Source of the DNA: a virus
Length of the DNA stretch: 21,618 bases
IMG/VR virus record: IMGVR_UViG_3300025425_001035
Span: 1 to 21,618 of that record
Reading direction: 5' to 3' (one strand)
Shown here in pieces: positions 5,531 through 20,643 of the stretch. The notes beneath the pieces are model-generated. The model did no database searches. It had not been told where the DNA came from and saw only the letters and a program-made list of their open reading frames with translations. A program made the translations under genes and the position numbers. Position 1 is the first letter of the stretch, and each line of letters begins with the position of its first letter.

Positions 5531-6368
5531 ATCTTCTCCAAACTAAATCAAAGTCTTTACTTATAGCGTGTACAATCTTTGTTTCTTCAGGTATAAATTT
5601 TTGAGTATCTAAAAAGTAATGCCATTGATTATCTAACCATTGTATGTTCACCTGATTTACTTTTGTTTTAAAAGAAAAGATTGTTTCATTATCATATCTA
5701 AACATATCAACAATATTATCAGGATATAAACCACCTCTGTCATTTCTTAGTCTAGTCATCATATCAATTACATCTCTAAATTTGCCAAAGTAATTTAGTT
5801 TTTGTATATCTTCTTTTCTGGCGCCTATGATACCTGTATTGATAACATCATTACTAGGATTTAAACCATAGTTTAAAAGCATGGCATGACAATTAAAGTA
5901 TTTTGCAGTAGGACTTCTTATACCTTGTACTGTATTGTAATCTTTTCTTACATGGTCATTGTTATTATAAACACATATACCTTTAGATAAGTCCCATGTG
6001 TCAAAAAAAGACTCGTTTGTTAATGGCACAGCGTCAAAGTCTAAGTATAATATCTCATCATATTTTTTAGATAACTCATATAGTAAATGTATCTTATAAA
6101 AATTGATTATTTCATAGCCTGTTAACTCAGGAAAATCAGATTTAAAATTCTTTTCAAATGATTGATAGTCTTCTTGTTCAAACATAATAAAATCAGCATC
6201 TATCTTATTGGCATAATGTCTCTTACAATCAATTAATTTCTTATAATGTTTTTTAAATGCATTAACAGTAATACTAGCTTTGTCTACCGTATCGTGTTGA
6301 TTTTTAGATTTGCCATAGTGCTCATCTGCTGGCACATCTACATATAAACTATAGATAACTCTATTCAT
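5523..6368 (-). CDS. GT-A-type glycosyltransferase
   Basis: This 281-residue protein contains YDEILYLDFDAVPLTNESFF, with D110-F-D112 as the DxD motif after a hydrophobic strand. Before it, KKLIDCKRHYANKIDADFIMFE forms an early helix and strand typical of GT-A enzymes. After it come VINTGIIGARKEDIQKLNYF (residues about 176-195), which resembles the acceptor-side N-x-G segment, and a late VHAIS. No membrane segment is present, so it should be cytosolic. It is longer than the other two DxD enzymes and its flanks differ, suggesting another sugar or acceptor. It overlaps its neighbours by 8 bases each. Confidence 0.75.
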   Translation of the reverse strand: MNRVIYSLYVDVPADEHYGKSKNQHDTVDKASITVNAFKKHYKKLIDCKRHYANKIDADFIMFEQEDYQSFEKNFKSDFPELTGYEIINFYKIHLLYELSKKYDEILYLDFDAVPLTNESFFDTWDLSKGICVYNNNDHVRKDYNTVQGIRSPTAKYFNCHAMLLNYGLNPSNDVINTGIIGARKEDIQKLNYFGKFRDVIDMMTRLRNDRGGLYPDNIVDMFRYDNETIFSFKTKVNQVNIQWLDNQWHYFLDTQKFIPEETKIVHAISKDFDLVWRRYD

Positions 6369-6948
6369 ATTTACCTACTAATAAAAACCTAGTGCCTCTA
6401 TCATCTTTTATTTCATCTTCAATTAAAACCTTTGCGTTGTCTGGTAATTGATTTTTAAATTCTTCAATATTATTAACACAATTAATGTGACCTTCAATGT
6501 TAGTCATATTATTAGATTGATAAGCAAAATAAGATTTAGTATCTAATTTTAATTCTTTCATAGGTCGCATATGTTCACACGAGGTATTAATTATTAAATT
6601 AGCGTTTTGTATTCTACCATTTCTATCTTTATGAAATACATCACTTGTTATAAAGTCAACATTTTTATAATGTTTGAATAATCTATTTTTAGCAATACTA
6701 ATTACTTTTTCATCTATATCTATTAAAGAAATTCTTTTTACTTCTTTAAATGCAGGTATTAATATACTACCATACCAACCACCTAATATAGTGATTTCAG
6801 ATTTTTTATTTACAATATTCAAATCTCTAATATAATTAATTAATATTTCTTTAGATTTAAACTGATTAGGACTAAAAGAATCTAATAAGTTTGAATTGTG
6901 TCTGGCTTCTGCCATTATATTTTTAAATAATTGTAGGTCTATATCCAT
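6361..6948 (-). CDS. SAM-dependent methyltransferase-like protein
   Basis: The 195-residue protein fits a class I methyltransferase. ITILGGWYGSILIPAF at about 52-67 stands at the SAM-binding motif I position, with GGWYG in place of GxGxG. SLIDIDEKVISIAKNRL at 74-90 has the acidic residue after the second strand that binds the ribose, VDFITSDVF at 97-105 is the adenine-side segment, and NLIINTSCEHM at 117-127 is motif IV. The NTSCEHM form with Cys, Glu and His together is unusual and may mark the substrate or metal site. It sits between a glycosyltransferase and a nitroreductase-like gene with overlaps of 8 and 10 bases. Methyl acceptor unknown: a sugar hydroxyl or carboxylate is a guess from context. 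Confidence 0.65.
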   Translation of the reverse strand: MDIDLQLFKNIMAEARHNSNLLDSFSPNQFKSKEILINYIRDLNIVNKKSEITILGGWYGSILIPAFKEVKRISLIDIDEKVISIAKNRLFKHYKNVDFITSDVFHKDRNGRIQNANLIINTSCEHMRPMKELKLDTKSYFAYQSNNMTNIEGHINCVNNIEEFKNQLPDNAKVLIEDEIKDDRGTRFLLVGKYE

Positions 6949-7622
6949 TTTATCACTTCATCAATAGGAGGTTTAATATCATCTTGTAATTCTCCTCTTT
7001 CTTCAAGGTCTTCATATCTATATCTATCTGAATAACCTAATGACATTAATAGTAAAGGTCTATATTTTACATAAGGTACATCTTTCCATTTATCTACACC
7101 TCTAGGAAAACAAGATGTATAAGAAACATCAATGCCTTTTTCCATTGCATACATTGTCATATTACTAATAAACATTCCTACTTCAATACATGCTGTATCG
7201 GCAATTCTTTCAACCCATTCAGGAAATAATTGTTCAGCAAAGTGACCTGTTTTAATTTGTCTTTCATAATATGGATTTGGTTTCTCACACACTCTACTAC
7301 TAAAAACTAATAGATATGAATTAAACTTTACATGTTCATAATAAGGATTTGCAAAACCTTGAACCTGTGAATTGTAACCATTTTTAACGGCGTCTTTTTC
7401 CATATTAGTATGATTCATAACAGATTTATTCCACACTTTTACTTTTTCCTCATGTTTGTCAGGTCCTAAAACATGACAATTGTAAGGCATAAAATTGTTT
7501 TTTGATGGTGTTGTTTTCCATGTTTTCCATAAAAGATTTTCAATTACTTCATATGGTGGATGTTTGTCAGTTTTATATTTTCTGACATGTTTTCTTTTTT
7601 CTAATAAATCAAATGTAGTCAT
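6939..7622 (-). CDS. Nitroreductase-family protein
   Basis: With the ATG at 7622 the protein has 227 residues; a longer form from an in-frame TTG at 7637 is possible. The ATG is preferred because it overlaps the carbamoyltransferase stop as ATGA, the usual arrangement here. LLEKRKHVRKYKTD matches the N-terminal RRSVRxF flavin-binding motif. TTPSKNNFMPYNCHVLGP matches the phosphate-side segment, and ACIEVGMFISNMTMYAMEKGI matches the core helix. VSYTSCFPRGVDKW and LLLMSLGYSDRY supply the late strands. Such enzymes bind FMN as dimers and reduce or oxidise small molecules with NAD(P)H. It is clearly the sister of the protein at 12846-13421 (shared PYN..VLGP, GMF and VSY..CF segments). Its redox substrate is unknown. 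Confidence 0.75.
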   Translation of the reverse strand: MTTFDLLEKRKHVRKYKTDKHPPYEVIENLLWKTWKTTPSKNNFMPYNCHVLGPDKHEEKVKVWNKSVMNHTNMEKDAVKNGYNSQVQGFANPYYEHVKFNSYLLVFSSRVCEKPNPYYERQIKTGHFAEQLFPEWVERIADTACIEVGMFISNMTMYAMEKGIDVSYTSCFPRGVDKWKDVPYVKYRPLLLMSLGYSDRYRYEDLEERGELQDDIKPPIDEVIKWI

Positions 7623-9100
7623 TTTCTTACTATCCAATCGTTAATTATTAATAGGTCTAATGATGTTCTTTTAAATGTTCTCATAGCCTGTTGAGGTGTT
7701 TCTACAATAGGTTCTTGACAATTGAAACTTGTATTAAGTAACATAGGTATGCCTGTGATTTTGTAAAACTCATTTATGATATTATAAAACTTCTCATTAA
7801 ACTCTTTATTGACAGTTTGTATTCTAGCAGTACCATCAACATGAGTAATACCAGGCACCTTATCTGTTTTTACTTTACATATTCTTGACATATAAGGACT
7901 AGGACTATTTGTATCAAAGTATTCTTTGTAATGTTCTTCTAATACAGCAGGTGCGAATGGTCTAAAATCTTCTCTCTTTTTAATCGTACTATTGATTATG
8001 TCTTTGATATTAGGATTGCGAGGGTCAGCTAATATACTTCTATTACCTAATGCTCGATTACCACTTTCTGATTTGCCTTGATACCAACCAACTATCTTGC
8101 CATCAGCAATAGATTGTGCTATTACTTTATAGTTAACTCTTTCATCACCTTCAAAATTATATTCATTACCAGCAAATGTTTCTGTTTTGTGAATATTATT
8201 ATTAATAGTATAATCGGCATGTTGATATGTACCTAATGCTTGGCCTTCATCACCAACAGCAGGTGGTATATAAACATTGTCATAATGTTTTGTAAACTCT
8301 TCATTAACATAACCGTTATATGCAACACCACCAGCAATACATAAGTTATCACAAGTCTTTAACGGATATACATGTTCTTTTATTTTATCAATAGTAAACT
8401 TTTGTAGTGTACAAGCTAAATCATTTATGTTGTCTAGTCTAATATGTTTGAAATGTTTTTGTTTCTTTTCTGTAATAGGTCCATCTAGTATTGTTTCAAA
8501 CACATCATAATAATATTGACTAAAATTACCATAACCTACTTTACCCATAAGTTTACTTGCACCTAATGTTCCAAAACCTGTTAGATTAGACATATGATTC
8601 CATAACCATCCGATTGGTAGTTTATCAGATAAGTCAATTAGATTTTGGTCTTTATCAAAGAATACACATCTGTACTTTGCACCTATACCGTCTATGGCCA
8701 GAATATCCGACTTATCAAAACCTGAATTTAAAAAGGCATATGTAGCATGTGATTGATGATGGTCTATGTAATAGATATTATCTTCAAAATAAAAATCCCA
8801 TAGTGTTTTAGGTTCAAAATCAAACACACCTTTTGGTAATAAGTCTTTACACATTCTTATACCACCAAGTGTATAAGTAAATGCCAGTACATCATCTGTC
8901 TTTTTAAAATACTCTTTTACAAACTCATTATTTAAACGATAATCAGCTGAGTTTAATATGTCTGATTGATGAGCATACGCTTCAGCGTGATAAGGTAGAT
9001 TGTGTTTAAATCTAGTTTCCCTCTCTCGTTGGTTGTGCCATACACCATCATATGTATTATGGTCGTGTAGATTTACGGCGACAGCGAATATCTTTCTCAT
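7619..9100 (-). CDS. NodU/CmcH-type O-carbamoyltransferase
   Basis: The 493-residue protein matches the carbamoyltransferase family, which moves a carbamoyl group from carbamoyl phosphate through an adenylate to a hydroxyl, as in NodU, CmcH and TobZ. The N-terminal Kae1-like domain has metal-binding H114, H115 and H118 (IDHHQSHAT), then AIDGIGAKYRC, GKLMGKVGYG-like ASKLMGKVGYG, and CIAGGVAYNGYVN with PPAVGDEGQALG. The C-terminal domain has SGNRALGNRSILADPR, REDFRPFAPAV, DGTARIQTV, LLNTSFN and EPIVETPQQAM, all hallmark segments. It is shorter than the usual 550-600 residues but keeps every block. It overlaps both neighbours by four bases. The likely acceptor is a sugar or other hydroxyl on the product built by this gene run; that is inference. 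Confidence 0.92.
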   Translation of the reverse strand: MRKIFAVAVNLHDHNTYDGVWHNQRERETRFKHNLPYHAEAYAHQSDILNSADYRLNNEFVKEYFKKTDDVLAFTYTLGGIRMCKDLLPKGVFDFEPKTLWDFYFEDNIYYIDHHQSHATYAFLNSGFDKSDILAIDGIGAKYRCVFFDKDQNLIDLSDKLPIGWLWNHMSNLTGFGTLGASKLMGKVGYGNFSQYYYDVFETILDGPITEKKQKHFKHIRLDNINDLACTLQKFTIDKIKEHVYPLKTCDNLCIAGGVAYNGYVNEEFTKHYDNVYIPPAVGDEGQALGTYQHADYTINNNIHKTETFAGNEYNFEGDERVNYKVIAQSIADGKIVGWYQGKSESGNRALGNRSILADPRNPNIKDIINSTIKKREDFRPFAPAVLEEHYKEYFDTNSPSPYMSRICKVKTDKVPGITHVDGTARIQTVNKEFNEKFYNIINEFYKITGIPMLLNTSFNCQEPIVETPQQAMRTFKRTSLDLLIINDWIVRK

Positions 9101-9918
9101 TTTAGTAACTTCCCATACTTGCTCATTGGAAAATGACCCTTAGGTTGCACCCATTCAGTACAGGTTTTGCAATAGTTCTCATACTTGAACAATCTAAAGT
9201 TCATCATCTTGTCTATGTTCTCCTGCGTTAGGTCAAAGGTTTTCGATAGTTCTTTATTATTAGCAAACTTCTTACTACAATGTACAATATGCCTTTTTTC
9301 AAAGTCGATAACTGGCACCATAGGAAAAGACGCACACATTTTACGGTCAATCTCAGCTGCCTGTATAACATCTGTAAACTCTGGTGACCTGCCATTAAAA
9401 GCCTTCCACATTGTATTCTTATGGTCTAATTTTTTGATAATCTCTGGATATTTGTCTTTGTATTTAAAATAGTTAGGTGTTCTAAGTACCACATTATAGT
9501 TGTTAAAGTCATTCTCTGGCACATAGTCAAAGTTACCTAATTTCTTAACTTCATCCTCATACCAATCTAGTATATTGTGTTCAACATATAATACATCTTT
9601 ATCTTCTAATATGTGAGGATATCTTTTACGAATAAATGAGTTAGATAATACTGAACAAACATGATTCGGATTCTTTTTAATTTCTGATATTACTTCGTCT
9701 AAATTTTTAATAAGACCTGGTTCGCCACCTAAAAGATTAACTCTAATTTTATATTCTTTTAAATATCCTAGAGTCTGTCTTAAAAAGTCCATATCTACAG
9801 TCAAGTTACGCATTTCTAAAGTGTAACTGGTACAATAGTGACAATCTTTATTACATGACATTGACATAAAGAAGTCTATTGCTAAATAATTTTCTTGTAT
9901 TTCTTTTAGTGTTTTCAT
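9097..9918 (-). CDS. Radical SAM enzyme with possible auxiliary cluster
   Basis: The 273-residue protein has the radical SAM CxxxCxxC motif at C22, C26 and C29 (CNKDCHYC), which holds the [4Fe-4S] cluster that cleaves SAM. NLLGGEPGL at 61-69 is the GGEP SAM-binding motif. Four more cysteines lie in the C-terminal third (C195, C214, C250, C253; the last two as YCKTC), resembling a SPASM- or twitch-like site for a second cluster. Such proteins modify peptides, sugars or other small molecules. The neighbours are a carbamoyltransferase and an unknown 95-residue protein, each overlapping by four bases. The 3' part is visibly richer in G+C than the 5' part, hinting at a different history. Substrate not predictable. 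Confidence 0.85.
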   Translation of the reverse strand: MKTLKEIQENYLAIDFFMSMSCNKDCHYCTSYTLEMRNLTVDMDFLRQTLGYLKEYKIRVNLLGGEPGLIKNLDEVISEIKKNPNHVCSVLSNSFIRKRYPHILEDKDVLYVEHNILDWYEDEVKKLGNFDYVPENDFNNYNVVLRTPNYFKYKDKYPEIIKKLDHKNTMWKAFNGRSPEFTDVIQAAEIDRKMCASFPMVPVIDFEKRHIVHCSKKFANNKELSKTFDLTQENIDKMMNFRLFKYENYCKTCTEWVQPKGHFPMSKYGKLLK

Positions 9919-10202
9919 TTTATAATTTTAAAAAATAATTTGTTAAAGGCTACCTTTAGTTTATTTGGTGATTTAAATGATACATCTTGAATATACTCAG
10001 GCATTTGATACACTTTCTCAACAATATAATCATAAATGTCCTCAGTTGTTTCAGTTATCAAACTCTTATCAATCATATTATCACCTAGAATCTTTGACAT
10101 GTTTTGACAAAATGTAATAGGACATTTATCAGTAATGTCAATCATGTTACCTTTTATATCTACAGTCCAGATTTTTGAGTAATTTTTATTGTGTTCAATC
10201 AT
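9915..10202 (-). CDS. Unknown 95-residue protein between radical SAM and aminotransferase genes
   Basis: I do not recognise this protein. It has a beta-like start (YSKIWTVDIKGNMIDITD), a central region with C28 and C33 (CPITFC), a helical stretch (TTEDIYDYIVEKVYQM) and a basic C-terminus rich in Lys and Phe (KLKVAFNKLFFKIIK). The DSL motif of acyl carriers is absent and it does not look like a PqqD-type peptide-binding domain. Its overlaps of four bases with both neighbours mean it is translated with them. A partner or substrate of the adjacent radical SAM enzyme is one possibility, based only on position. Confidence 0.65.
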   Translation of the reverse strand: MIEHNKNYSKIWTVDIKGNMIDITDKCPITFCQNMSKILGDNMIDKSLITETTEDIYDYIVEKVYQMPEYIQDVSFKSPNKLKVAFNKLFFKIIK

Positions 10203-11245
10203 ACAGTTATCATAATAATTTCTAACATTTTTCTAATTTCATGTTTTGTTAGATATGGATGTAAAGGTAAAGTAAGTATAGTATCACTTACAATTTGACA
10301 ATTCATACAATCATCTTTTTTGTGTGTTATGTTTTTATACATGGCGTTTTCACTTAAAGGTTTATTGTAATGTACCTTTGCGTTTAATACTCTATCTTTT
10401 ACTTTATCTCTTATGGTTTTGTTTTCAAATCTTACAACATATTTGTGGTAGTTATGATTTAAACCGTTTGTAGATTTTTGAGTTACCACAGGAAAATCTT
10501 TTAATGCATTATCATATATCTTGGCAATCTCTTGTCTTTTTGCCTGCCATTCATTCATTCGTTTTAGTCTAAAGTTTATGATTTCAGCATTAAACAATAA
10601 CATTTTAGAATTAAAACCTAAAAACTCATTATTACCATGCTTTCTAATCTTTTTAAAAAACTCCGCTCTATCTTCTTCATCTGTCAGAATTGCACCACCA
10701 CCGGATATTCCTGCCACAACTTTATTTGCATTAAAACTAAGGGTACTAATATCACCTATGGATCCAGCTACAACACCATTATAACTAGAACCTAGAGATT
10801 GGCAAGCGTCCTCTATGATAGGTATTCCTAGTTGTTTAATTTTTTCCATATCAGACATGTTACCAAAAAGATGAGGATAAACTATGGCTTTTGTTTTGTT
10901 ACTTATCATTCTTTTGACACTATTATAAGATAGATGATAACTGTTTAAATCAATGTCACAAAATACAGGTGTTGCCCCGACCATAGAGATACATGAGGCT
11001 GTAGATATCCAAGAAAAGTTTGATGTAATAACTTCATCACCTGGTTTGATACCCATTGACATTAATGAATACGCCAATGCGTCTGTACCACTATTACATG
11101 TTACAGCATATTTTCTATTTGTGATTTCTGCTAGATTTTTTTCAAGAAACTCAACATTTGTTTCTTGTTCTTTTTGCATTACTCTATCAAAGAGTTCTAG
11201 GTATTCACTTTTGTTTGATAAGTATTCTCTATCCCAACCTGTCAT
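10199..11245 (-). CDS. DegT/DnrJ/EryC1/StrS-type sugar aminotransferase
   Basis: The 348-residue protein is a PLP-dependent fold-type I aminotransferase of the nucleotide-sugar family. NSGTDALAYSLMSMGIKPGDEVI at 51-73 binds the cofactor phosphate. ATPVFCDID at 91-99 is a family signature, EDACQSLG at 145-152 holds D146 and Q149 at the pyridine ring, and SFNANK at 170-175 gives the Schiff-base lysine K175. These enzymes convert keto-sugar nucleotides to amino sugars, and some act as dehydratases; the lysine argues for amination here. Length is slightly under the usual 370-390. It overlaps the SGNH gene by 17 bases. With the epimerase at 2142 it suggests that an amino sugar is made. Confidence 0.9.
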   Translation of the reverse strand: MTGWDREYLSNKSEYLELFDRVMQKEQETNVEFLEKNLAEITNRKYAVTCNSGTDALAYSLMSMGIKPGDEVITSNFSWISTASCISMVGATPVFCDIDLNSYHLSYNSVKRMISNKTKAIVYPHLFGNMSDMEKIKQLGIPIIEDACQSLGSSYNGVVAGSIGDISTLSFNANKVVAGISGGGAILTDEEDRAEFFKKIRKHGNNEFLGFNSKMLLFNAEIINFRLKRMNEWQAKRQEIAKIYDNALKDFPVVTQKSTNGLNHNYHKYVVRFENKTIRDKVKDRVLNAKVHYNKPLSENAMYKNITHKKDDCMNCQIVSDTILTLPLHPYLTKHEIRKMLEIIMITV

Positions 11246-11987
11246 GTATATACTCCGCTATTTTTAATTGTCCTTTTGCATTTGGATGGTCATCTAAATC
11301 AGATACTTTTACCGACTTATCACCTCTCTCAAAGATAGGTGTTGCTTGTGAACAAAGTGTAAACCCACCTAGTTCTTTTGCTATTGGCCAACCCATAAAT
11401 TTATTTGTGTTTAGTTTTTTATCGTAACTTAAAATACATTTCAATACTCTTTTTTTATCTTTTTCTTTATCATATTGGTATTTCATTTTTTTATTATTCA
11501 AAGAAGGATTATCATAAATTATTCCATGACCATATCTTAAACCACCTAATAAATCTGAATGAAAATTTATCATCTGTACTTGACAATAATTTAAGTTAAA
11601 TCTTTCACACAGGTATTGAAAACTTAAATAAAATTTTAAACTTTTGTTAGCTAAACTAAAGGCATCGCCGTGTGGGTCGTTTCTTAAATTTGTCCATCTG
11701 CCGGCGTGGCCTTGTTGATAGTCTTTTCTCTGTATTTGAGACCAACCAGCAATGACCAAACCTATACTATCTTTTGATATTGAAGGATTAGAAATGTAAT
11801 CTAATAAAGATGAGTAAATATATTCATTGCCAGCTCCTGCCTTGCCAAGATTTACGCAATTCATATCTAATTTTTTTGCTAAAATTTCTGGCCATTTAGG
11901 CCAACTTGTGTCTATTTCTGGATGAAATTCTGATAACCAATTTGGGTCGGTATAACTATCACCACTAACTAATAATGTCTTTTTCAT
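11229..11987 (-). CDS. SGNH/GDSL-type hydrolase
   Basis: The 252-residue protein has the SGNH blocks: VSGDSYTD with nucleophile S11, LGKAGAGNEY with Gly and N54, IAGWSQIQR at the third block, and DLDDHPNAKG near the C-terminus with H234. These enzymes cleave or transfer acyl esters, often acetyl groups, on carbohydrates or lipids. The catalytic Asp usually stands three residues before the His; here that position is Leu, with Asp at minus 4, minus 2 and minus 1, so the triad may be shifted. No signal peptide is present, so it should act in the cytosol. It overlaps neighbours by 23 and 17 bases. Adding or removing an O-acyl group on the glycan is the natural guess. Confidence 0.78.
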   Translation of the reverse strand: MKKTLLVSGDSYTDPNWLSEFHPEIDTSWPKWPEILAKKLDMNCVNLGKAGAGNEYIYSSLLDYISNPSISKDSIGLVIAGWSQIQRKDYQQGHAGRWTNLRNDPHGDAFSLANKSLKFYLSFQYLCERFNLNYCQVQMINFHSDLLGGLRYGHGIIYDNPSLNNKKMKYQYDKEKDKKRVLKCILSYDKKLNTNKFMGWPIAKELGGFTLCSQATPIFERGDKSVKVSDLDDHPNAKGQLKIAEYIHDRLG

Positions 11988-12849
11988 TTATCACCTTAAT
12001 CATATTAACAAGTATATTTAGGTTGCCGGAATACATCTGTTTTGTAGGTACAGGTCTATTGTAGTATATCGGTCCGCCGTCTTTGATGTTTTTATCTCTT
12101 AAATATATCACTTCTTTTCCTAACCATTTACACTCTTGCATTAATCTAGGTGCTGGGTCAAAGTATGTTTTTGTGTAAACATATGTTTTAAATAGCCCTA
12201 ATAGATTTTTTACAGGTGCAAATATATTATTGTAGTCCATTATAATGTATTTCTCATTATATGTCAATACTCCGTGTGACTTATATTTGTCAATATGTTT
12301 TGAAATTTCGTTGTAATATACATTATTTGTACCTAAAAAGAGATAATCAAATTGTATATTATCTACAATTGGTTTATAGACTTCAAAATTAATCATTTTT
12401 TCATATTGTTCTCCTTCACCATTAGGGTAAACATCATAATCACATAAGTTGTACACTCTTTTGTTTTTAAAATATTTCAATGCAGGTTGCCAAAGGTCGT
12501 GTTGATTTTCAGAATACATTGATATCAGATTACCACCAAATAATAAATGCATTGTTAATAACTGGTCGTAAGTATAATCCTTTTTATCTTTGTAGGATAA
12601 AGTCATCATACTTCTACCCAATATAAAAGATATATCATTAGACGCAGGTGTATATTCATCAAAGATTATGTTTTCACAACGGACATATTTTTCTCTGATA
12701 GAGTTTAGATAATCTTCTTTTGTAAATTTATGATGTGTGATAATTACAACTTGACTTGTGATACCTATAGAGTTTAGGTAACAACAATGTTCATAACTAT
12801 AACACAAGAGACCATCGCCTGGTTTACTTGTACATACTATATTAATCAT
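11965..12849 (-). CDS. GT-B-like glycosyltransferase, tentative
   Basis: This 294-residue protein begins INIVCTSKPGDGLLCYSYEHCCYLNSIGI, a strand, glycine loop and helix like the first unit of GT-B transferases, followed by VVIITHH. The second half has YLFLGTNNVYYNEISKHI and VLTYNEKYIIMDYNNIFAP. The late segment TYFDPAPRLMQECKWLGKEVIYLRD is where GT-B enzymes bind the donor nucleotide, with a Glu in the helix and a following strand. No DxD is seen, as expected for GT-B. It is shorter than typical GT-B proteins (350 or more). It overlaps the next gene by 23 bases and the previous by four. An alternative is a non-catalytic sugar-binding relative. Confidence 0.5.
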   Translation of the reverse strand: MINIVCTSKPGDGLLCYSYEHCCYLNSIGITSQVVIITHHKFTKEDYLNSIREKYVRCENIIFDEYTPASNDISFILGRSMMTLSYKDKKDYTYDQLLTMHLLFGGNLISMYSENQHDLWQPALKYFKNKRVYNLCDYDVYPNGEGEQYEKMINFEVYKPIVDNIQFDYLFLGTNNVYYNEISKHIDKYKSHGVLTYNEKYIIMDYNNIFAPVKNLLGLFKTYVYTKTYFDPAPRLMQECKWLGKEVIYLRDKNIKDGGPIYYNRPVPTKQMYSGNLNILVNMIKVINEKDIIS

Positions 12850-13421
12850 TTAAATTTTATAACATCATCTATATGAGGTTTATAATCTCCTTTTTCTACT
12901 CTCGGTGTGAGAGGATAACCAAATTGCATACTGAACAAAACTTCTTCATTTTCATATTTCCAATCTCTAAAACATAACTGATATGAAACGCCTAGATTAT
13001 TTTCTAAACATAAACCAATTAATACTTTTGCAAACATACCTATTTCTAAAGATATGTTGTGTTTATCTTTTTTATATTTTTGAGGGTCAGTACAAGGCTG
13101 GTCATGTCCTTCATCAATTAATTGTTGAACATGTTGGTTTGGCTTTGTAACTAATCTAGGTGTAAAGATTAAATTATATGGCGCCTTTATATTGTGATTG
13201 TGGCCACCACCTGTTACTTTTTGTACATGTGAATATATCTTTTGTTTTTCATCACTACAATTTGGACCTAAAACATATATATTATATGGTATGATATTCT
13301 GTTTTGAGGCGACAAGATTATATGTTTTTGATAATAAATCTTTCGCTAATGTATCATTCGGTATTTTATCGCTATATCTATATACCTGATACCGTGTTTC
13401 AAATAGTTTTTCCATAATCAT
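12846..13421 (-). CDS. Nitroreductase-family protein (first gene of leftward run)
   Basis: The 191-residue protein is the smaller sister of that at 6939-7622. Shared segments are ETRYQVYRYSD (for RRSVRxF), VASKQNIIPYNIYVLGP, SLEIGMFAKVLIGLCLENNLGVSYQLCF and a final IDDVIKF. In length and motifs it is close to a minimal nitroreductase, so it could bind FMN as a dimer. Two start codons are in frame, at 13421 and 13415. AGGA stands four bases before the first. If the overlapping late box is used, the predicted transcript start falls on the first ATG, which would make the message leaderless or favour the second. It opens a run of thirteen overlapping genes. Confidence 0.72.
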   Translation of the reverse strand: MIMEKLFETRYQVYRYSDKIPNDTLAKDLLSKTYNLVASKQNIIPYNIYVLGPNCSDEKQKIYSHVQKVTGGGHNHNIKAPYNLIFTPRLVTKPNQHVQQLIDEGHDQPCTDPQKYKKDKHNISLEIGMFAKVLIGLCLENNLGVSYQLCFRDWKYENEEVLFSMQFGYPLTPRVEKGDYKPHIDDVIKFK

Positions 13422-13460: not shown

Positions 13461-14078
13461 ATGAGTTATAATAGTTTATTATCTTTTGGTGACTTGATAC
13501 CTTTAAAATTAAAGTGTGATGTCAAGAAGTTATTTGACGAAACGGAAAAGTTCGTTTATCTAAAATACAATCCAAGAAAAGATATAGAAAGATATGGTCT
13601 AAGTATTACTAGTTTAGATGGCTCTCTAAACGGTGTAGATTTAGATTCAATAAAAGAATATAATAAAGAAAACAATACAGAGTATGATGAGTTATCCTTT
13701 AACAAGTTCACAGAGGTTTACCATACTAGTTCAGAAATACAAAAAATAGTAGAACCATTTAAAGACCATATTGGCAGGTCACATATACTAAGTTTACAAG
13801 AAGGTGGTTATTTTCCACCACACAGAGATTTGCCTGTTTATGTTGAACAACAAAATAGTTTGAGAATACTGGTACCTTTAAAAGGTTGTAATCCACCAGA
13901 TATGTATTTTATGTATGAAGATAAACCTTTACATTTCGAACATGGTAGAGCGTACTTTTTGAACACAAATAAGTCACACAATTTATTTTCTTTTAAAGGT
14001 AGTGAGATGATAGTATTAAATATTAAAACAAATGAAGAGGTCTATAAGATTATAGGTGACCTTTTCCAGGCTAGATAA
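13461..14078 (+). CDS. Fe(II)/2-oxoglutarate oxygenase-like protein (aspartyl/asparaginyl hydroxylase type)
   Basis: The 205-residue protein has a double-stranded beta-helix core in its second half. FPPHRD places H121 and D123 as the HxD half of the metal site; RILVPLKG at 135-142 is a core strand; HGRAYFLNTNKSHNLFSF supplies the distal H173. This resembles the small Asp/Asn beta-hydroxylase-like oxygenases common in marine phages. The Arg that usually binds 2-oxoglutarate a few residues after the distal His is not in its usual place (FKGSEMIVLNI), so co-substrate binding may differ. The ATG follows GAGGA by six bases. It is the first gene after the palindromic promoter and is related in type to the protein at 20017-20643. 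Target unknown. Confidence 0.7.
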   Translation: MSYNSLLSFGDLIPLKLKCDVKKLFDETEKFVYLKYNPRKDIERYGLSITSLDGSLNGVDLDSIKEYNKENNTEYDELSFNKFTEVYHTSSEIQKIVEPFKDHIGRSHILSLQEGGYFPPHRDLPVYVEQQNSLRILVPLKGCNPPDMYFMYEDKPLHFEHGRAYFLNTNKSHNLFSFKGSEMIVLNIKTNEEVYKIIGDLFQAR

Positions 14079-14081
14079 ATA
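14074..14081 (+). promoter_or_regulatory. Weak late-promoter-like box before the desaturase gene
   Basis: GATAAATA matches the NATAAATA form and overlaps the stop of the preceding gene. If active, transcription would begin about at the desaturase ATG (14087), with no leader. No ribosome site is obvious between these genes. Low confidence. Confidence 0.25.
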
Positions 14082-14086
14082 GTAAT

Positions 14087-14743
14087 ATGTGGTTAACAAT
14101 TTCAATATTAATAGGCATAGTGTGGTCTCAAATTATTTCACACTTTGGCGCTAGCATACTATTACATAGACATTATTGTCATAATCAATTCAAAGTACCT
14201 GTATGGTTTGAAAGAATTGGTTTAGCAATGTTAATGATAGCATGTATTAGAACACCAATAGGGTGGATTGCGAGTCACCGTATGCACCATACACACTCAG
14301 ACGGACCAAAAGACCCACACGCAGCTAAACATATAGGTTTCTGGAAAGTCTTATTGACTACATGGAATATTGAAAAAATACCTATGAAATATGCAAGAGA
14401 TTTATATAAAAATCCTAATTTAGTATTTTGTCATAAGCATTGGTTGAAAATACTAATAGGTGTAAATGTTGTTAGTTACATTATTTGTCCATATCTTTGG
14501 GTGGCCTTTTGTGCCGTACCATTTGTTTTTGCAAAAATAGGATTTGGACTATTGAACACAGTCGGACATAAAACACCAGGTGGCGCTAATGTACCTTGGT
14601 TAAATATGTTTATTGCAGGTGAAGGCTATCATAAAAATCATCACGAAAACTTTAAGAGAATTAGATTACATAAGTTTGATACTGGTGGTTGGTTAGCGGA
14701 GAGATTATTTAAAGATTATGAACCAAACAAAAGAAATACTTAA
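14087..14743 (+). CDS. Membrane fatty-acid desaturase (acyl-CoA/acyl-lipid type)
   Basis: The 218-residue protein has all three histidine boxes of di-iron membrane desaturases: HRHYCH at 27-32, HRMHH at 64-68 and HKNHH at 182-186. N157 with GH at 160-161 in NTVGHKTPGG is also typical. Hydrophobic stretches at about 1-20, 43-58 and 119-155 should span the membrane. The spacing fits the delta-9 type (SCD/DesC-like). These enzymes use O2 and an electron donor to put a double bond in an acyl chain. It is compact beside the usual 270-320 residues and has no fused cytochrome b5, so electrons must come from elsewhere. The gene lies eight bases after the oxygenase gene and overlaps the next by 26. 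Confidence 0.92.
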   Translation: MWLTISILIGIVWSQIISHFGASILLHRHYCHNQFKVPVWFERIGLAMLMIACIRTPIGWIASHRMHHTHSDGPKDPHAAKHIGFWKVLLTTWNIEKIPMKYARDLYKNPNLVFCHKHWLKILIGVNVVSYIICPYLWVAFCAVPFVFAKIGFGLLNTVGHKTPGGANVPWLNMFIAGEGYHKNHHENFKRIRLHKFDTGGWLAERLFKDYEPNKRNT

Positions 14744-15617
14744 AAACAATAAATTCGTAGATGTACCATTAATAAAAGATGTAAGATACCTTTTGTTAAA
14801 TCAAATAACGGCCTATGGTTATATTGCCAGAGGTACTGGTCAAGCTACCAATGAGTTAGATAAACTTGAATATGACCATAGAGAATGGGTCAAAGAGATT
14901 ATAGACCTATCAGATTTTCCTCATTTCTACTTCACTAACGGTACTACAGACGCAATACATCATTGGCGAATCACAGAAACTAGACCATGGCAAAAATTAT
15001 GTTATGGTGAATATCAATATATGGATATGATAGGACCGGAAGGAACAGTTTGTTGTGATGTACCAGGTCAATATATGAAAGATGGTCGTTCAGCATTGCC
15101 ATCTATCATAGACAAAGATAAACCTTTATACATTTCCATACCGTCAGCCGCTGATGGTAATTTTTTTAATCCACAAGAAAGAGGACCTATTGAGGCACCT
15201 GTAATATTAGATTGCACATATATTGGTGCAACAGATAAACAAAAAATAGATGTTCCTAAAAATACTGAACAAGTCTTTTTTAGTTTCTCAAAAGGATTTG
15301 GTGCAGTAGGTCAAAGACTAGGTTTAGTATATACAAAAGAACCACATCCAACTTTAGAAAGATTAAAAAGTGTAGAGTGTTGGAATTATAATGGTGTACA
15401 AACAATAGACTTATTAATAAAGAATTTTGCAGTAGATGATATGTGGAAAAAATATAGAGAAAAACAATTAGAGGTTTGTGAAAAATATAATTTTGAACCA
15501 TCTGACTGTTATTTTTTAGCAACAACAAAAGACCAATATTATAAGGAGAGAAGACGAATGAGATGGAATGATAATGCTAGAATTTGTATCACTCCACTAT
15601 TAGGAGATATTGAATGA
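14718..15617 (+). CDS. Fold-type I PLP-dependent enzyme (aminotransferase-like)
   Basis: The 299-residue protein shows a compact aminotransferase pattern. TNGTTDAIHHW at 73-83 is the phosphate-side helix start. VILDCTYIGA at 162-171 carries D165 at the ring nitrogen. FFSFSKGFGAVGQRLG at 187-202 has the Schiff-base lysine K192 and the R200 seen in class I/II aminotransferases. It is not of the DegT type found at 10199. Usual class I proteins have about 380-420 residues, so the small domain is reduced. An aminotransferase, decarboxylase or lyase role is possible. The start at 14718 overlaps the desaturase gene by 26 bases; the stop overlaps the next ATG (ATGA), which has a good AGGAGA at 15602-15607. 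Confidence 0.72.
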   Translation: MNQTKEILKNNKFVDVPLIKDVRYLLLNQITAYGYIARGTGQATNELDKLEYDHREWVKEIIDLSDFPHFYFTNGTTDAIHHWRITETRPWQKLCYGEYQYMDMIGPEGTVCCDVPGQYMKDGRSALPSIIDKDKPLYISIPSAADGNFFNPQERGPIEAPVILDCTYIGATDKQKIDVPKNTEQVFFSFSKGFGAVGQRLGLVYTKEPHPTLERLKSVECWNYNGVQTIDLLIKNFAVDDMWKKYREKQLEVCEKYNFEPSDCYFLATTKDQYYKERRRMRWNDNARICITPLLGDIE

Positions 15618-16438
15618 AACAAATATTAGACTATACGAAAAACGACTTTAAAGATTTAGTTACAAAGATTGTAAAAGATGGACAAGTTGTATTGCATGAA
15701 CAAAACCTAACACAACAAGAGTTGACCAAAGTTTGTGAGAGAATGGGTAATGTAGAAACAAATGACTACTTTATGAATCCTAAAGGCGCACCAGCAATTA
15801 GTATTGTGTCAGGTCAATTAGATAAAGATAAAAAACCAATAGGAATGTTCAGAGACCAAGAGTTACAATGGCATGCCAACGGAACAGGCAGACATGAATT
15901 CAAAGAAATATGTGTAGGTCTTTATTGTGTGTATGAATGTGTTGATACAGTTCTTTCCATAAACAATAATTGTGAAGCATTTGCAGGTCTATCAAATGAA
16001 AAGAAAGAGTTTTATAGAAACATAGATGTAAAACTTGACAATTCAGGACCTAGAGCTAGACTATGGCCAAAAGATAGTGACTATGAAGGAGTTGGTGAAG
16101 ATACTTTTAGGGTGGGTCAAGAACATTATCAAGAAACTGTTGATAGAAGACCTTTAGTAGAAAAACATCCTTTTGATGGTCGAGAGTATCTATACTTTAT
16201 GGTGCCTTACATAGTAAAAGCATTTACAAAAGATGGTACTGAAATAGAAGACTTTGAAGATTTTTATAATACATTATGGAACGATATGATTAAATCCAAG
16301 TATCAATATCATCATGTATTTAAAGTAGGTGATTTGTTGTTTATGGACCAACTAAATACAATTCATAGACGGTCACCTATTAAAGATAAAGACAGACAAT
16401 TATGGAGAACGGCATTTGATTACAGCAATTTCATTTAG
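15614..16438 (+). CDS. TauD/TfdA-type oxygenase-like protein with Asn in the metal motif
   Basis: The 274-residue protein follows the TauD layout. GMFRDQELQWHANGTGRHE at 77-95 is the first metal segment, and FMDQLNTIHRRSP at 243-255 holds the distal H251. RQLWRTAFDY at 261-270 holds the Arg that binds 2-oxoglutarate (R261 or R265). The first motif reads H87-A-N89, with AAC at 15878-15880, where TauD-type hydroxylases have HxD. Loss of that carboxylate occurs in Fe halogenases, where Ala or Gly leaves room for halide. Here Asn could mean altered chemistry or lost activity. The protein at 18054-18863 has the same change and about the same length, so the two are paralogues. Its ATG overlaps the previous stop. 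Confidence 0.8.
   Translation: MKQILDYTKNDFKDLVTKIVKDGQVVLHEQNLTQQELTKVCERMGNVETNDYFMNPKGAPAISIVSGQLDKDKKPIGMFRDQELQWHANGTGRHEFKEICVGLYCVYECVDTVLSINNNCEAFAGLSNEKKEFYRNIDVKLDNSGPRARLWPKDSDYEGVGEDTFRVGQEHYQETVDRRPLVEKHPFDGREYLYFMVPYIVKAFTKDGTEIEDFEDFYNTLWNDMIKSKYQYHHVFKVGDLLFMDQLNTIHRRSPIKDKDRQLWRTAFDYSNFI
16404..16407 (+). promoter_or_regulatory. Ribosome binding site supporting a TTG start
   Basis: GGAG lies eight bases before the TTG at 16416, inside the end of the preceding gene. It supports the TTG as the start of the FMN reductase-like gene over the later ATG at 16455. Confidence 0.5.
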
Positions 16439-16991
16439 TTATAGTGACGACTCTATGAATTATAGAGGTTTAAAATTAATGAATCATTTTTTAAACTTTG
16501 ATAATTTAGTAAAGATTAATTTACCTATTTGTAATGTCAATGGACCTGAAGGACAAACACCGGAAGAGTTAGATGATTTACATGTGAAGATTAAAGGTAG
16601 TGATAAACTAGTTTTTGCTATACCAGAATACTCTGGTCATTATAGTGTAGGATTTAAAAACTTTATGGATTGGTTAGTTGTAAAATCAAATTATAATGCA
16701 GACTTAGGTCAAGATTATTGCATTACAGATAAACCAATATATGTAATTACATTTACACCATCTAAAGAGGGTGCTGGTGACAGACACTTTGATATGACAA
16801 AAGAGTTAATAGAAAAGTTAGGTGGTAAGGTAAAGAAAATGTATGTAAAAAATGATTGTTGGGATAACTTAAAACCTGATAACTTAAATTTTGTTGAAAA
16901 AGAAAGTAAAGAAATATTAAGAAGTTCAATGAAAAATGAAGTCAACGGTTGGATTAAAAAATATAATGAATGGAATGATAAATGGAAATAA
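16416..16991 (+). CDS. NADPH-dependent FMN reductase-like flavoprotein
   Basis: The 191-residue protein has the flavodoxin-like fold of FMN reductases. The first strand and phosphate loop are ITAISFSYSDDSMNYRG at 2-18. LVFAIPEYSGHYSVGFKNFMDW at 65-86 matches the flavin-side P-x-Y-x-x-x-x-x-G-x-K-N-x-x-D-W segment. The start appears to be TTG at 16416: the first strand would be lost from the next ATG (16455), and GGAG lies eight bases upstream. Such enzymes pass electrons from NAD(P)H to FMN or to partner proteins. Neighbours include oxygenases, a desaturase and a peroxiredoxin, so it could serve as an electron supply. It overlaps its neighbours by 23 and 10 bases. Confidence 0.75.
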   Translation: MITAISFSYSDDSMNYRGLKLMNHFLNFDNLVKINLPICNVNGPEGQTPEELDDLHVKIKGSDKLVFAIPEYSGHYSVGFKNFMDWLVVKSNYNADLGQDYCITDKPIYVITFTPSKEGAGDRHFDMTKELIEKLGGKVKKMYVKNDCWDNLKPDNLNFVEKESKEILRSSMKNEVNGWIKKYNEWNDKWK

Positions 16992-17404
16992 AAGCTTTAT
17001 ACTACTTAAAAGATGGTCATATTAAATCATATGAATTAGATACTAATAAAACAATTATTATGTGTGGTATTCCTGGCGCATTTACTAGTGATTGCACATA
17101 TAAACATTTACCAGGTTTTGTAAACAACTTGCAATATTTAAAAGATAAAGGTATTGATAAGGTTGTATTTGTAGGTGTGAATGACGCTTATGTTATGCAT
17201 GAATGGAATAAATTACATGGCCATGAAGACATTGATAGTGTATCAGACCCATTGGCTAAGTTCGCCAAGTCTATAAAAAAAGATGTAGATTGGGGAGAAA
17301 GTTTTGGTGTAAGAAGTCACAGATATGCCTATCTTATTGAGAATGGAAAAATAACAAAAGAATTTAAAGACGCATTGATTGAAGGTATTAAAAAAGAATT
17401 ATGA
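16982..17404 (+). CDS. Peroxiredoxin (Prx5-type)
   Basis: The 140-residue protein carries PGAFTSDCTYKHLPGF at 31-46, the Prx5/AhpC-TSA active site with T35 and peroxidatic C38. VVFVGVNDAYVMHEW at 61-75 is a Prx5 hallmark, and R111/R114 in GVRSHRYAYLIENG fit the catalytic Arg. No second Cys suits a resolving role, so it should be of the 1-Cys type and need an outside thiol. It is a little short (about 160 is usual). It would reduce H2O2 or organic peroxides in the cytosol, which makes sense next to several O2-using enzymes and a flavin reductase. It overlaps its neighbours by 10 and 4 bases. Confidence 0.88.
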   Translation: MEIKALYYLKDGHIKSYELDTNKTIIMCGIPGAFTSDCTYKHLPGFVNNLQYLKDKGIDKVVFVGVNDAYVMHEWNKLHGHEDIDSVSDPLAKFAKSIKKDVDWGESFGVRSHRYAYLIENGKITKEFKDALIEGIKKEL

Positions 17405-18057
17405 TAAAAGGTATTGCTGAGTATCTTGACATTGACATTGATAAAGATTTATTTCTTTCAATGTATAATAAAGTTAAGATAGAAAACAATAATACATTTG
17501 GTAAAACTCCATTTGTTAGTTATTCTTTAGAAGAGAATAGAACAGGTAAACCTACAGGTTATGAAAAAGTATTTGACCCTATATTATCTCAACATAGAAA
17601 AGTACATACTAACTATCAATTCAGGTCGACAGGTTTTAATACAGCAGATAGTACAGAGAAAGATGTCTTTGCTCACACAGATATAGATTTAGATACTGAA
17701 CATCCAAATGGTTACAATATTGTTGTTCCTGTATTAGGCAATTCTCGTATAGATTATTTTGAAACTATAGATGAAGAAGTTTACTTACCAGAAAAAAATG
17801 CTCATGGTCATGCTTACTACCATGAATTTTATGCTCAGAAAGAATTGGGTCAAGGCACACCTGAATTTGAAAAGTTTTTGAGTAATAGAAAGATAGGTCA
17901 TATTATTGTTGATAAACCTTTATTAATACAAACCACCATTATGCATAGAGTGGTAGTTACAGAGGCGCCTAGATGTGCTTGGGTAACAAGATGGAATAAT
18001 ATACCTAAAGATGTAAGCTTTCAAGAATTTAAACAGAGGGTAGAAAATATATTATGA
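17401..18057 (+). CDS. Fe(II)-dependent oxygenase-like protein with complete HxD...H
   Basis: The 218-residue protein looks like a cupin-fold Fe(II) oxygenase. FAHTD at 90-94 gives H92 and D94; YNIVVPVLGNSRIDYFE at 105-121 forms core strands; IIVDKPLLIQTTIMHRVVVTEAPRCAWVTRW at 168-198 includes the distal H182 and R191, the probable 2-oxoglutarate contact. Unlike the two TauD-type neighbours, its carboxylate is intact. A His-rich insert lies at about 135-142 (HGHAYYH). It overlaps both flanking genes by four bases, and sits between the peroxiredoxin and the second TauD-type gene. The substrate is unknown; it does not group clearly with the other oxygenases here. Confidence 0.65.
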   Translation: MIKGIAEYLDIDIDKDLFLSMYNKVKIENNNTFGKTPFVSYSLEENRTGKPTGYEKVFDPILSQHRKVHTNYQFRSTGFNTADSTEKDVFAHTDIDLDTEHPNGYNIVVPVLGNSRIDYFETIDEEVYLPEKNAHGHAYYHEFYAQKELGQGTPEFEKFLSNRKIGHIIVDKPLLIQTTIMHRVVVTEAPRCAWVTRWNNIPKDVSFQEFKQRVENIL

Positions 18058-18863
18058 TTAATCCAGAAAAAATTGATGTACAAATTAAAGAGTTCTCAAA
18101 AGAACAATTGATTGATATATCTAAAGGTATACACAAACAAGGTGTAACAGTATTCTATAATCAAAAATTAAATGAAACAGAATATACAAATGTAATGAAG
18201 AAGTTTGGTGAGTGTGAAACACCTAATTTGTTTATGAATCCTAAAGAGTATCCAGAAATCTTTTTAGTTACAGGTAAAAAAGTAGATGGTAAAAAATTAG
18301 GCATGTTTGGTGATACAGAATTAGGTTGGCATTCTAACGGTAATTCAAGACATCTTATAGATAAAATATTGATTGCTTTGTATTGTGTAAAAGAAGATAT
18401 TAATACAACTTTAAGTGTTTGTAATACTCAACAACCTTTTTATGATATGTCTAAAGATGAACAAGAATATTATCGTTCAATTACAATTAGACTTAAATTT
18501 AAAAACAATACAATATACGATTTAGAAGAAGGCGACCCCGAGTTAGAGTTTATGAGTAAAAACAAAGGTAGTATTCGTAAGTTAGTTGGTCAACATCCAC
18601 ATACTGGTTTAGAATACTTTTATTTTCCTTATCATTTTATAACTAAAGCATGGCAAGGTAAAAAACAAATTGACGCTGAAGAGATGATTAATAAGTTAAT
18701 GCCTAAAATATTTAAATCACAATATCAATATCATCATATATTTAAAGAAGGAGATTTGTTATTAATGGACCAATTTACAAGTTTACACCGTAGAACACCA
18801 GTTATGGATAACAATCGTTTATTATGGCGAATAGCATCGGATTTTAAAAATGTCTATAAGTAA
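18054..18863 (+). CDS. Second TauD/TfdA-type oxygenase-like protein with Asn in the metal motif
   Basis: This 269-residue protein parallels that at 15614-16438 throughout. Shared segments include MNPKxxPxI near residue 61, GMFxDxEL then WHxNGxxRH at 92-100, LYCVxE, QYQYHHxFKxGDLLxMDQ and xHRRxPxxDxxRxLWRxAxDxxN. The metal motif is H93-S-N95, with AAC at 18336-18338, again Asn in place of Asp. H245 and R255/R259 complete the expected site. Keeping the Asn in both copies while other residues have drifted suggests that it is selected, not decay. The gene overlaps its neighbours by 4 and 14 bases. The two could act in turn on one substrate, or as a heterodimer. Confidence 0.8.
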   Translation: MINPEKIDVQIKEFSKEQLIDISKGIHKQGVTVFYNQKLNETEYTNVMKKFGECETPNLFMNPKEYPEIFLVTGKKVDGKKLGMFGDTELGWHSNGNSRHLIDKILIALYCVKEDINTTLSVCNTQQPFYDMSKDEQEYYRSITIRLKFKNNTIYDLEEGDPELEFMSKNKGSIRKLVGQHPHTGLEYFYFPYHFITKAWQGKKQIDAEEMINKLMPKIFKSQYQYHHIFKEGDLLLMDQFTSLHRRTPVMDNNRLLWRIASDFKNVYK

Positions 18864-19458
18864 AGAAGTGCCTTGGCCAAAAATCGTAACTGACTCTGGT
18901 GAAATACCCATGAAAAGAAGATATGCATTTAGAGATATGTCATATCTCGACACAATAGAAGCAAGACCTATTTTTGAAACACAATCAGATATAATAATTA
19001 AAAATAATTTCAAAGGTATTGTAGATATAGGTTGTAGGCATGGACCTATTAACGACTTTCTACATGAAAAGAATTACAAAGACTATGAGTATTATGGTTT
19101 TGATACATCACCTGAACCTATAGAGTTAGCACAAAAAAGATGGCCAAACTATCAATATGAAGTTAGAGATTGGGCAACATTAAAAAAGGTTAATTTTAAT
19201 GTCGATTGTATAATTTTTAGTGGTGTATTGTTATATGAAAAAGACCATTATAAAATGTTTACTAATATTATGAAATATTATAATTGTAATAATGCAGTAA
19301 TTCAAGAGCCTTATCACAATCAAAAGTATTACGAAGAAAGATTAAAATTAAAATCAATTACAAATGATATGCAACAATATAGTTTTTGGGAAGAACACAT
19401 TGTAGAGGCAGAAATTTTTTGTGGTAGAAGATTAGTCGCCCACGCTAAATTACTATGA
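18850..19458 (+). CDS. Class I SAM-dependent methyltransferase
   Basis: The 202-residue protein has a clear SAM-binding core: IVDIGCRHGPINDFL at 57-71 (motif I, DxGCxxG), YYGFDTSPEPIELAQKRW at 81-98 with D85 for the ribose, YEVRDWATL at 103-111, and IIFSGVLLYEKDHY at about 116-129 as motif IV and post-motif helix. The first 45 residues form a cap that would contact the substrate (MKRRYAFRDMSYLDT). It differs from the methyltransferase at 6361. It overlaps the TauD-type gene by 14 bases and the next gene by four. O- or N-methylation of the pathway product is the likely job; substrate unknown. Confidence 0.82.
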   Translation: MSISKEVPWPKIVTDSGEIPMKRRYAFRDMSYLDTIEARPIFETQSDIIIKNNFKGIVDIGCRHGPINDFLHEKNYKDYEYYGFDTSPEPIELAQKRWPNYQYEVRDWATLKKVNFNVDCIIFSGVLLYEKDHYKMFTNIMKYYNCNNAVIQEPYHNQKYYEERLKLKSITNDMQQYSFWEEHIVEAEIFCGRRLVAHAKLL

Positions 19459-20036
19459 TTGTAAAAAGATATTCAGAGGACCCCAATAAGTATTGGCCAA
19501 TGATTGAAAGGTTTAGACTACAGACCTTTGAAGAAGGTAATGATAGTTTAACACATAAGAAGTACAATCCAGATAATCCTGAAATAGAAACATGGTTAAC
19601 TTTTAAAGATGATAAACTAATATCTATATCAGCCGCCGAAAGTTCACACTATACAAATGACTCTGATATTGCAGTTAGAGTTTGTCGTTATCATATACTA
19701 AAAGAGTTTAGACATACTCATTGTGGTTTAATTATGGCTGAACACCAAATAAAGTGGGCAAGAGAAAGAGGATTTAAAATATTATATATCACACATGACA
19801 TAAGAAATAAAGCCATAAATAACCTATATCAAAGAAAAAAGATGATGACTGATAAAGAGTTTAAAAAGTTTATAACAGGAGAATGGTGGACAAAACTACA
19901 ATTAGAGAAAGGTTTTTTATTCACTACAGGAAAGATGTTACAATATGTGTATAGCATTAGACTACAAGGTGATTTTGATTGGCAACCTGAATCAGATTTT
20001 ATAATTAAAAGGAAACATGATGGACAAATTATCTAA
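19455..20036 (+). CDS. GNAT-like acyltransferase
   Basis: The 193-residue protein matches the GNAT layout. WLTFKDDKLISISAAESS at about 47-64 gives beta-4-like strands, and RVCRYHILKEFRHTHCGLIMAEHQIKWARERGFK at 75-108 fits the strand, acetyl-CoA pyrophosphate loop and helix (motif A). ILYITHD with NKAINNLYQRKK at 109-129 fits motif B. The loop lacks the ideal Q/R-x-x-G-x-G/A, so the assignment is moderate. Family members transfer an acyl group, usually acetyl, to an amine; an amino sugar from the DegT enzyme is an attractive but unproved acceptor. The ATG overlaps the methyltransferase stop as ATGA; the 3' end overlaps the next gene by 20 bases. Confidence 0.6.
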   Translation: MIVKRYSEDPNKYWPMIERFRLQTFEEGNDSLTHKKYNPDNPEIETWLTFKDDKLISISAAESSHYTNDSDIAVRVCRYHILKEFRHTHCGLIMAEHQIKWARERGFKILYITHDIRNKAINNLYQRKKMMTDKEFKKFITGEWWTKLQLEKGFLFTTGKMLQYVYSIRLQGDFDWQPESDFIIKRKHDGQII

Positions 20037-20643
20037 ACACAGTTTACCAACAGTAAAAGAATTAAATCTTAATATAGATTTGGATAAGTTAAGAAAGGCT
20101 ACAGACGAGTTGGCTGAAAAGTTTACAGATGTGAGGTCTGCTAATCCTATGTTATGTATGAACCATGAGGAGTTGGTCAAAAGTGTATATGATAATTTTG
20201 AACAAATCAATTTGACTACACCAAGTGAGATATTGCCACATACTACAAGTATAAAAGAAAGATTGAGAAGAAAAGAAGAACACCTATATAATATACCTAC
20301 ACCAGAATATACAGGTAGTTATTTTGAGGAGATAGTTACTCAATGTAAATCTCCAGCTAGTAGAATTAGAATTACAAAATTGGCACCAGGCAAAATGATA
20401 CCATGGCATGTTGATTATGATGTATCGTATGGGGTACGAGTTATTGTTCCTATCTATGGAGATACAAATGTTATTAATCTATTTAAAAGAGATAATAAAA
20501 TAGAAGCATATAATCTTAAAAATGGAGTTGCCAATTTCTTAAATATAGGTTATACTCACGGTGTCGTGTCTATGAGTAAAAAGGCTAGGTTAGCTTTGAT
20601 GTTTACATTAAATGGCACAAAAGACATAGAAAAACTATTATAA
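20017..20643 (+). CDS. Fe(II)/2-oxoglutarate oxygenase-like protein (aspartyl/asparaginyl hydroxylase type)
   Basis: The 208-residue protein has the full small-oxygenase site: MIPWHVDYD with H131 and D133, RVIVPIYGD at 141-149 as core strand, and NFLNIGYTHGVVSMSKKARLALMF with distal H181 and the 2-oxoglutarate Arg R191. It resembles the protein at 13461-14078 in domain layout but keeps the Arg that one lacks. Residues 1-95 are a helical N-terminal part with no clear relative. Two adjacent ATGs (20017 and 20020) can start it; AAGGA just upstream fits the second slightly better. It is the last gene of the rightward enzyme run, after which a late promoter and virion genes follow. Confidence 0.75.
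   Translation: MMDKLSKHSLPTVKELNLNIDLDKLRKATDELAEKFTDVRSANPMLCMNHEELVKSVYDNFEQINLTTPSEILPHTTSIKERLRRKEEHLYNIPTPEYTGSYFEEIVTQCKSPASRIRITKLAPGKMIPWHVDYDVSYGVRVIVPIYGDTNVINLFKRDNKIEAYNLKNGVANFLNIGYTHGVVSMSKKARLALMFTLNGTKDIEKLL

Follow-up and report, generated by a model that had tools for sequence, protein, structure and literature searches.

Phage TauD-fold proteins with asparagine at the metal-binding aspartate position form a conserved family

The two TauD-type proteins analyzed here, TauD-A and TauD-B, are predicted TauD/TfdA-fold proteins in which the carboxylate of the HxD motif is replaced by asparagine. What appears to be new is a whole TauD-fold family that departs from HxD in this way, and its HxN members point to an oxygenase that works, but with altered chemistry. 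The window, i.e., the whole stretch of DNA analyzed, is a 21.6-kb viral record akin to the Pelagibacter phage Mosig EXVC030M (Kyanoviridae). Its TauD genes and their motifs, with residues counted from the starts at 15614 and 18054, are the following:

15614..16438, plus strand: TauD-A, 274 aa, TauD/TfdA-fold; H87-A-N89, distal H251, R261, R265
15872..15880, plus strand: HAN motif of TauD-A, CAT GCC AAC; Asn89 at the TauD D101 position
18054..18863, plus strand: TauD-B, 269 aa, TauD/TfdA-fold; H93-S-N95, distal H245, R255, R259
18330..18338, plus strand: HSN motif of TauD-B, CAT TCT AAC; Asn95 at the TauD D101 position

The two proteins are 41% identical to each other, and Mosig carries the B copy only, which is 91.5% identical to TauD-B.

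Both proteins score above the curated cut-off of 27 bits for the Pfam TauD profile PF02668 (71.3 bits for TauD-A and 72.6 bits for TauD-B), adopt the family fold in their models, and keep the 2-oxoglutarate (2OG)-binding Arg near the distal His. At the 2-His-1-carboxylate triad of this superfamily, HxD...H, both read HxN...H. The AlphaFold2 models (pLDDT of 87.7 for TauD-A and 85.8 for TauD-B) were compared with known structures using Foldseek. The best matches of TauD-A were SfaA, ScoE, Rv0097, and TauD, and TauD-B matched the same four proteins, in both cases over nearly the full length, with Z of about 25 between TauD-B and ScoE or TauD. These structural neighbors are metabolite oxygenases. 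The taurine-site residues H70, Y73, N95, S158, F159, and F206 are not conserved as a set in TauD-A or TauD-B, and both proteins reach 21 to 23 bits against the NCBIfam taurine dioxygenase equivalog, for which 313 bits are needed.

The active site was mapped by MAFFT alignment with E. coli TauD; the PDB-chain sequence alignments shown stop short of the HxD stretch. In this alignment, TauD H99, D101, and H255 correspond to H87, N89, and H251 of TauD-A and to H93, N95, and H245 of TauD-B. The 2OG-binding R266, invariant in the clade, corresponds to R261 and R255, and R270 corresponds to R265 and R259. The motif follows the strand of the first metal His in both models (residues 84 to 87 in TauD-A and 90 to 93 in TauD-B), which are metal free, so that the geometry at Asn is derived from the alignment and not from measured distances. 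The initial annotation had read Asn at the metal-Asp position of both proteins, with the distal His and Arg kept. Both readings hold: the AAC codons lie exactly where it placed them, and equivalents of TauD H255, R266, and R270 are present.

Asparagine at this position extends far beyond the window. Among 136 distinct TauD-type sequences, 102 carry HxN and 34 carry HxD; in an extended set of 194, the numbers are 159 (two of which end further on) and 34, with one sequence falling short of the site. The 34 HxD sequences comprise 31 distant cellular TauDs and 3 from one phage subclade, and apart from these 3, all distinct sequences of the clade that span the site have HxN, even though identity within the clade falls to about 25%. 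The HxN proteins are found on viral contigs and a Methylomagnum plasmid, in isolated phages, and in Bdellovibrionota genomes; among them are those of P-HM1 and P-HM2, two cyanophages, and of about 60 contigs related to these. In cyanophage MED4-213, the P-HM2-type TauD is split into two annotated frames (L141:1001-2070), by frameshift or decay. By comparison, the tree contains 28 TauDs of a cellular outgroup (plasmids, Bdellovibrionota), and all of these have HxD. A wider profile scan gave 252 relatives, of which 80 were kept. The counts from the genome-contig scan and from the alignment-based viral scan are biased, since the search patterns contained the Asn motif. The single-protein scans of IMG/VR are unbiased, as their peptide patterns lacked the motif; they returned 10 and 34 loci, in which every TauD spanning the motif has HxN.

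The middle residue of the motif varies (S, A, T, V, or C), while Asn is constant and the two His and two Arg are invariant across the HxN clade. Asn is encoded by AAT in 100 cases and by AAC in 45, and the use of both synonymous codons indicates that selection acts on the residue. Family-wide HxN with both codons rules out a local loss or a sequencing error; indeed, no close relative was found that shows HxD as the ancestral state of such a loss. The homologue search and the tree thus establish Asn as a conserved trait of the lineage, of which altered chemistry, as first proposed, is the natural reading.

In a maximum-likelihood tree of 89 sequences, the ligand changes twice, once where the HxN clade parts from the HxD outgroup and once in a return to Asp. 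The return is found in a phage paralogue of loci L109, L110, and L115 (motif stretch DVDWHSDL), which is nested in HxN with support of 100/98 within 100/100. The nested return holds when the trait residue is masked and the longest branches are removed (100/99 within 100/100); in the masked tree, the P-HM2/Methylomagnum clade shifts position. The 89-sequence tree suggests a single origin of Asn, and a second origin in the P-HM2/Methylomagnum branch is possible. The HxD paralogue lies at L110:1710-2710 and L115:1698-2650, and the phage locus that holds it also has an HxN TauD-B. Since phages with the Asp paralogue keep HxN in TauD-B, the choice of ligand seems to be tied to the enzyme and not to the host or its iron supply. 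A genome-wide Asp-to-Asn bias or an iron-poor host was considered and rejected: one and the same phage carries both an HxD and an HxN TauD, and three oxygenase-like families of the gene cassette described below keep HxD. Up to four HxN paralogues occur in one phage locus (L120, L122).

No replacement Asp or Glu at the metal emerged, which leaves the original reading standing. Judged by sequence, no column that is acidic in the HxN clade and not in the HxD outgroup could supply a clade-specific Asp or Glu able to stand in at the metal. A compensating carboxylate was therefore set aside, as no conserved, clade-specific acidic column lies near the motif apart from E89 of TauD-B (E83 of TauD-A). 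This conserved Glu occupies the TauD N95 position, near the pocket on the substrate side, and could play a part at the site. Some HxD enzymes, too, have an acidic residue (Glu or Asp) in the TauD N95 column, and D234 and D239 are acidic in the HxD outgroup as well.

The TauD genes are part of a cassette at 13461-20643. The other members are given below, with their occurrence among 100 TauD-B cassette loci that include many close relatives or overlaps and are not independent; a TauD-A-type gene is present in 47 of these 100 loci.

13461..14078, plus strand: putative Asp/Arg-hydroxylase-like oxygenase; H121-R-D123...H173; PF05118 E 0.007, below cut-off
14087..14743, plus strand: small fatty-acid-desaturase-like protein; PF00487 39 bits; 88 of 100 loci
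14718..15617, plus strand: PLP-enzyme-like (aminotransferase I/II fold) protein; its relative L125:8312-9187 is above the PF00155 cut-off; 91 of 100 loci
16416..16991, plus strand: NADPH-dependent FMN reductase-like protein; PF03358 47.9 bits; 67 of 100 loci
16982..17404, plus strand: peroxiredoxin; PF08534 69.3 bits; 50 of 100 loci
17401..18057, plus strand: unclassified protein with the oxygenase-like pattern H92-T-D94...H182; no Pfam match; 55 of 100 loci
18850..19458, plus strand: SAM-dependent methyltransferase; PF13847; 99 of 100 loci, the most constant TauD-B partner
19455..20036, plus strand: GNAT acetyltransferase; PF00583; 75 of 100 loci
20017..20643, plus strand: putative Asp/Arg-hydroxylase-like oxygenase; H131-V-D133...H181; PF05118 E 0.0066, below cut-off; 88 of 100 loci

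The families at 13461, 17401, and 20017, which may be oxygenases, were used as HxD controls within the cassette. HxD...H is invariant in the 14 sequences of the first, conserved in the 24 sequences (one gapped) of the second, and present in 45 of the 45 ungapped sequences (49 rows) of the third.

The cassette appears to be mobile, being common to many marine phages and Bdellovibrionota MAG contigs; parts of it lie on long Bdellovibrionota MAG contigs (L124, L125). An 8.6-kb contig binned as Candidatus Paceibacter (L123) also bears the phage cassette and looks like a phage contig, not a bacterial locus. Elsewhere in the window, the minus strand at 3353-13421 encodes a NodU/TobZ-type carbamoyltransferase, nitroreductases, a radical SAM protein, a DegT aminotransferase, and glycosyltransferase-like proteins; this second block is also found in Mosig. 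The genes on either side of the Methylomagnum homologue (L245) encode an acyl carrier protein and an NRPS. This setting is matched in cyanophage P-HM2, itself a carrier of an HxN TauD, by genes for an acyl carrier protein and a 4'-phosphopantetheinyl transferase (L247:18917-19411 and 41648-42106). These biosynthetic surroundings, both in the cassette and at the Methylomagnum locus, argue for tailoring of a small molecule or peptide.

Taken together, TauD-A, TauD-B, and their relatives are probably active Fe(II)/2OG oxygenases with a 2-His-1-Asn site that tailor a small molecule or peptide within the phage cassette. We infer iron binding, 2OG turnover, Asn coordination, and the reaction outcome as follows. 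The iron would be held by the two His and the neutral carboxamide of Asn, whose side-chain oxygen may coordinate weakly, or Asn may hydrogen-bond a water or an anion in that place. With 2OG bound in the usual way, the ferryl could still form, in a site that has one charge less and a labile or anion-accessible position. The substrate may be made or modified by the other products of the cassette (PLP enzyme, desaturase, flavin reductase, methyltransferase, acetyltransferase, and further oxygenases), and hydroxylation, desaturation, and anion transfer are candidate reactions. Loss of the Asp abolished activity in the P4H variants D414A/G, among which a change to Asn was not included (PMC2767507), and TauD D101A is also inactive, as cited in the same paper. 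However, an amide oxygen ligates nonheme iron in IPNS, through Gln330 (PMC5637899), and AspH is an active 2OG oxygenase without an acid iron ligand (PMC10947486). These two precedents make activity without the Asp plausible, despite the dead P4H variants.

A more specific and rather doubtful extension of this proposal is that the HxN TauDs transfer halide or another anion, or run another non-hydroxylating reaction, at a natural 2-His-1-Asn iron site, for which the nested return to Asp would provide a built-in comparison. The halogenase form of this idea, in which losing the carboxylate would let chloride, bromide, or some other anion reach the iron and be taken up by the substrate radical in place of OH, seems unlikely. 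The marine setting is rich in halide, an acyl carrier protein and an NRPS flank the Methylomagnum homologue, and HxN cyanophages carry the carrier protein with its phosphopantetheinyl transferase. SyrB2-type halogenases act on carrier-bound substrates. Moreover, the defining mark of Fe/2OG halogenases is a missing HxD carboxylate (PMC2767507; PMC13244439). The characterized enzymes, however, have Ala or Gly at this position, and the Asn of TauD-A and TauD-B, as large as Asp, would fill the halide site. Changing the carboxylate alone gave no halogenation in P4H (PMC2767507), and no halogenase is among the top 50 Foldseek matches, although fold ranking is no test of function.

The initial annotation had also raised a regulatory pseudoenzyme pair; in such a reading, catalysis would be lost and the TauDs would act as regulatory or structural partners. 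A normally essential ligand is indeed gone, and model enzymes are usually inactivated by losses of this kind. The idea is disfavored, however, by the invariance of the two His and two Arg across the clade, where relaxed conservation would be expected, and by the presence of several HxN paralogues per phage. No residue other than Asn has taken the place of the Asp, and the recovery of HxD in one paralogue makes more sense if the enzyme was active; a pair of dead enzymes is therefore quite improbable. Deamidation, by which Asn-Gly would convert quickly to Asp and leave the mature TauD-A/TauD-B-type members with a conventional HxD site, is very improbable: N-G, the classic deamidation sequence, is present in both proteins, and Gly96 does not vary across the A/B alignment, but the residue after the Asn is Leu, Glu, Val, Met, or Asn in other HxN clades, and an encoded Asp is only one base away and is used once (GAT).

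How far the Fe/2OG triad tolerates change, and how this affects the reaction outcome, is a long-standing question that has mostly been explored with engineered mutants. A large conserved HxN family, with several paralogues per genome and a nested return to HxD, makes the role of the ligand testable on natural pairs. Our literature search found no description of a natural HxN Fe/2OG enzyme, which is weak evidence of novelty since most subscription journals lay outside it. The analysis also flags a phage-borne biosynthetic cassette in marine viruses.

The HxN proteins share with the TauD/TfdA Fe(II)/2OG dioxygenases (TauD, ScoE, SfaA, Rv0097, and AtsK) the full-length fold, the metal His pair, the 2OG Arg, and the second Arg. 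They differ from the solved members in having Asn as the metal residue, and identity to these is only about 13 to 20%. As in the Fe/2OG halogenases SyrB2, CytC3, and BesD, the HxD/E carboxylate is absent, but the residue is Asn here and Ala or Gly there, and no close sequence relation to these enzymes was found. AspH, a 2-His Fe/2OG hydroxylase, likewise has no acidic iron ligand; it belongs to another family, and an Asn ligand is not described for it in the available text (PMC10947486). A parallel in motif is T4-GC447 of cyanophages P-HM1 and P-HM2, annotated as a taurine catabolism dioxygenase since 2010, with the missing Asp not mentioned in the available portion of that report (PMC3037559). 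Although about 25% identical to TauD-A and TauD-B and found in another genomic setting, these cyanophage proteins carry the same HxN with the distal HRR.
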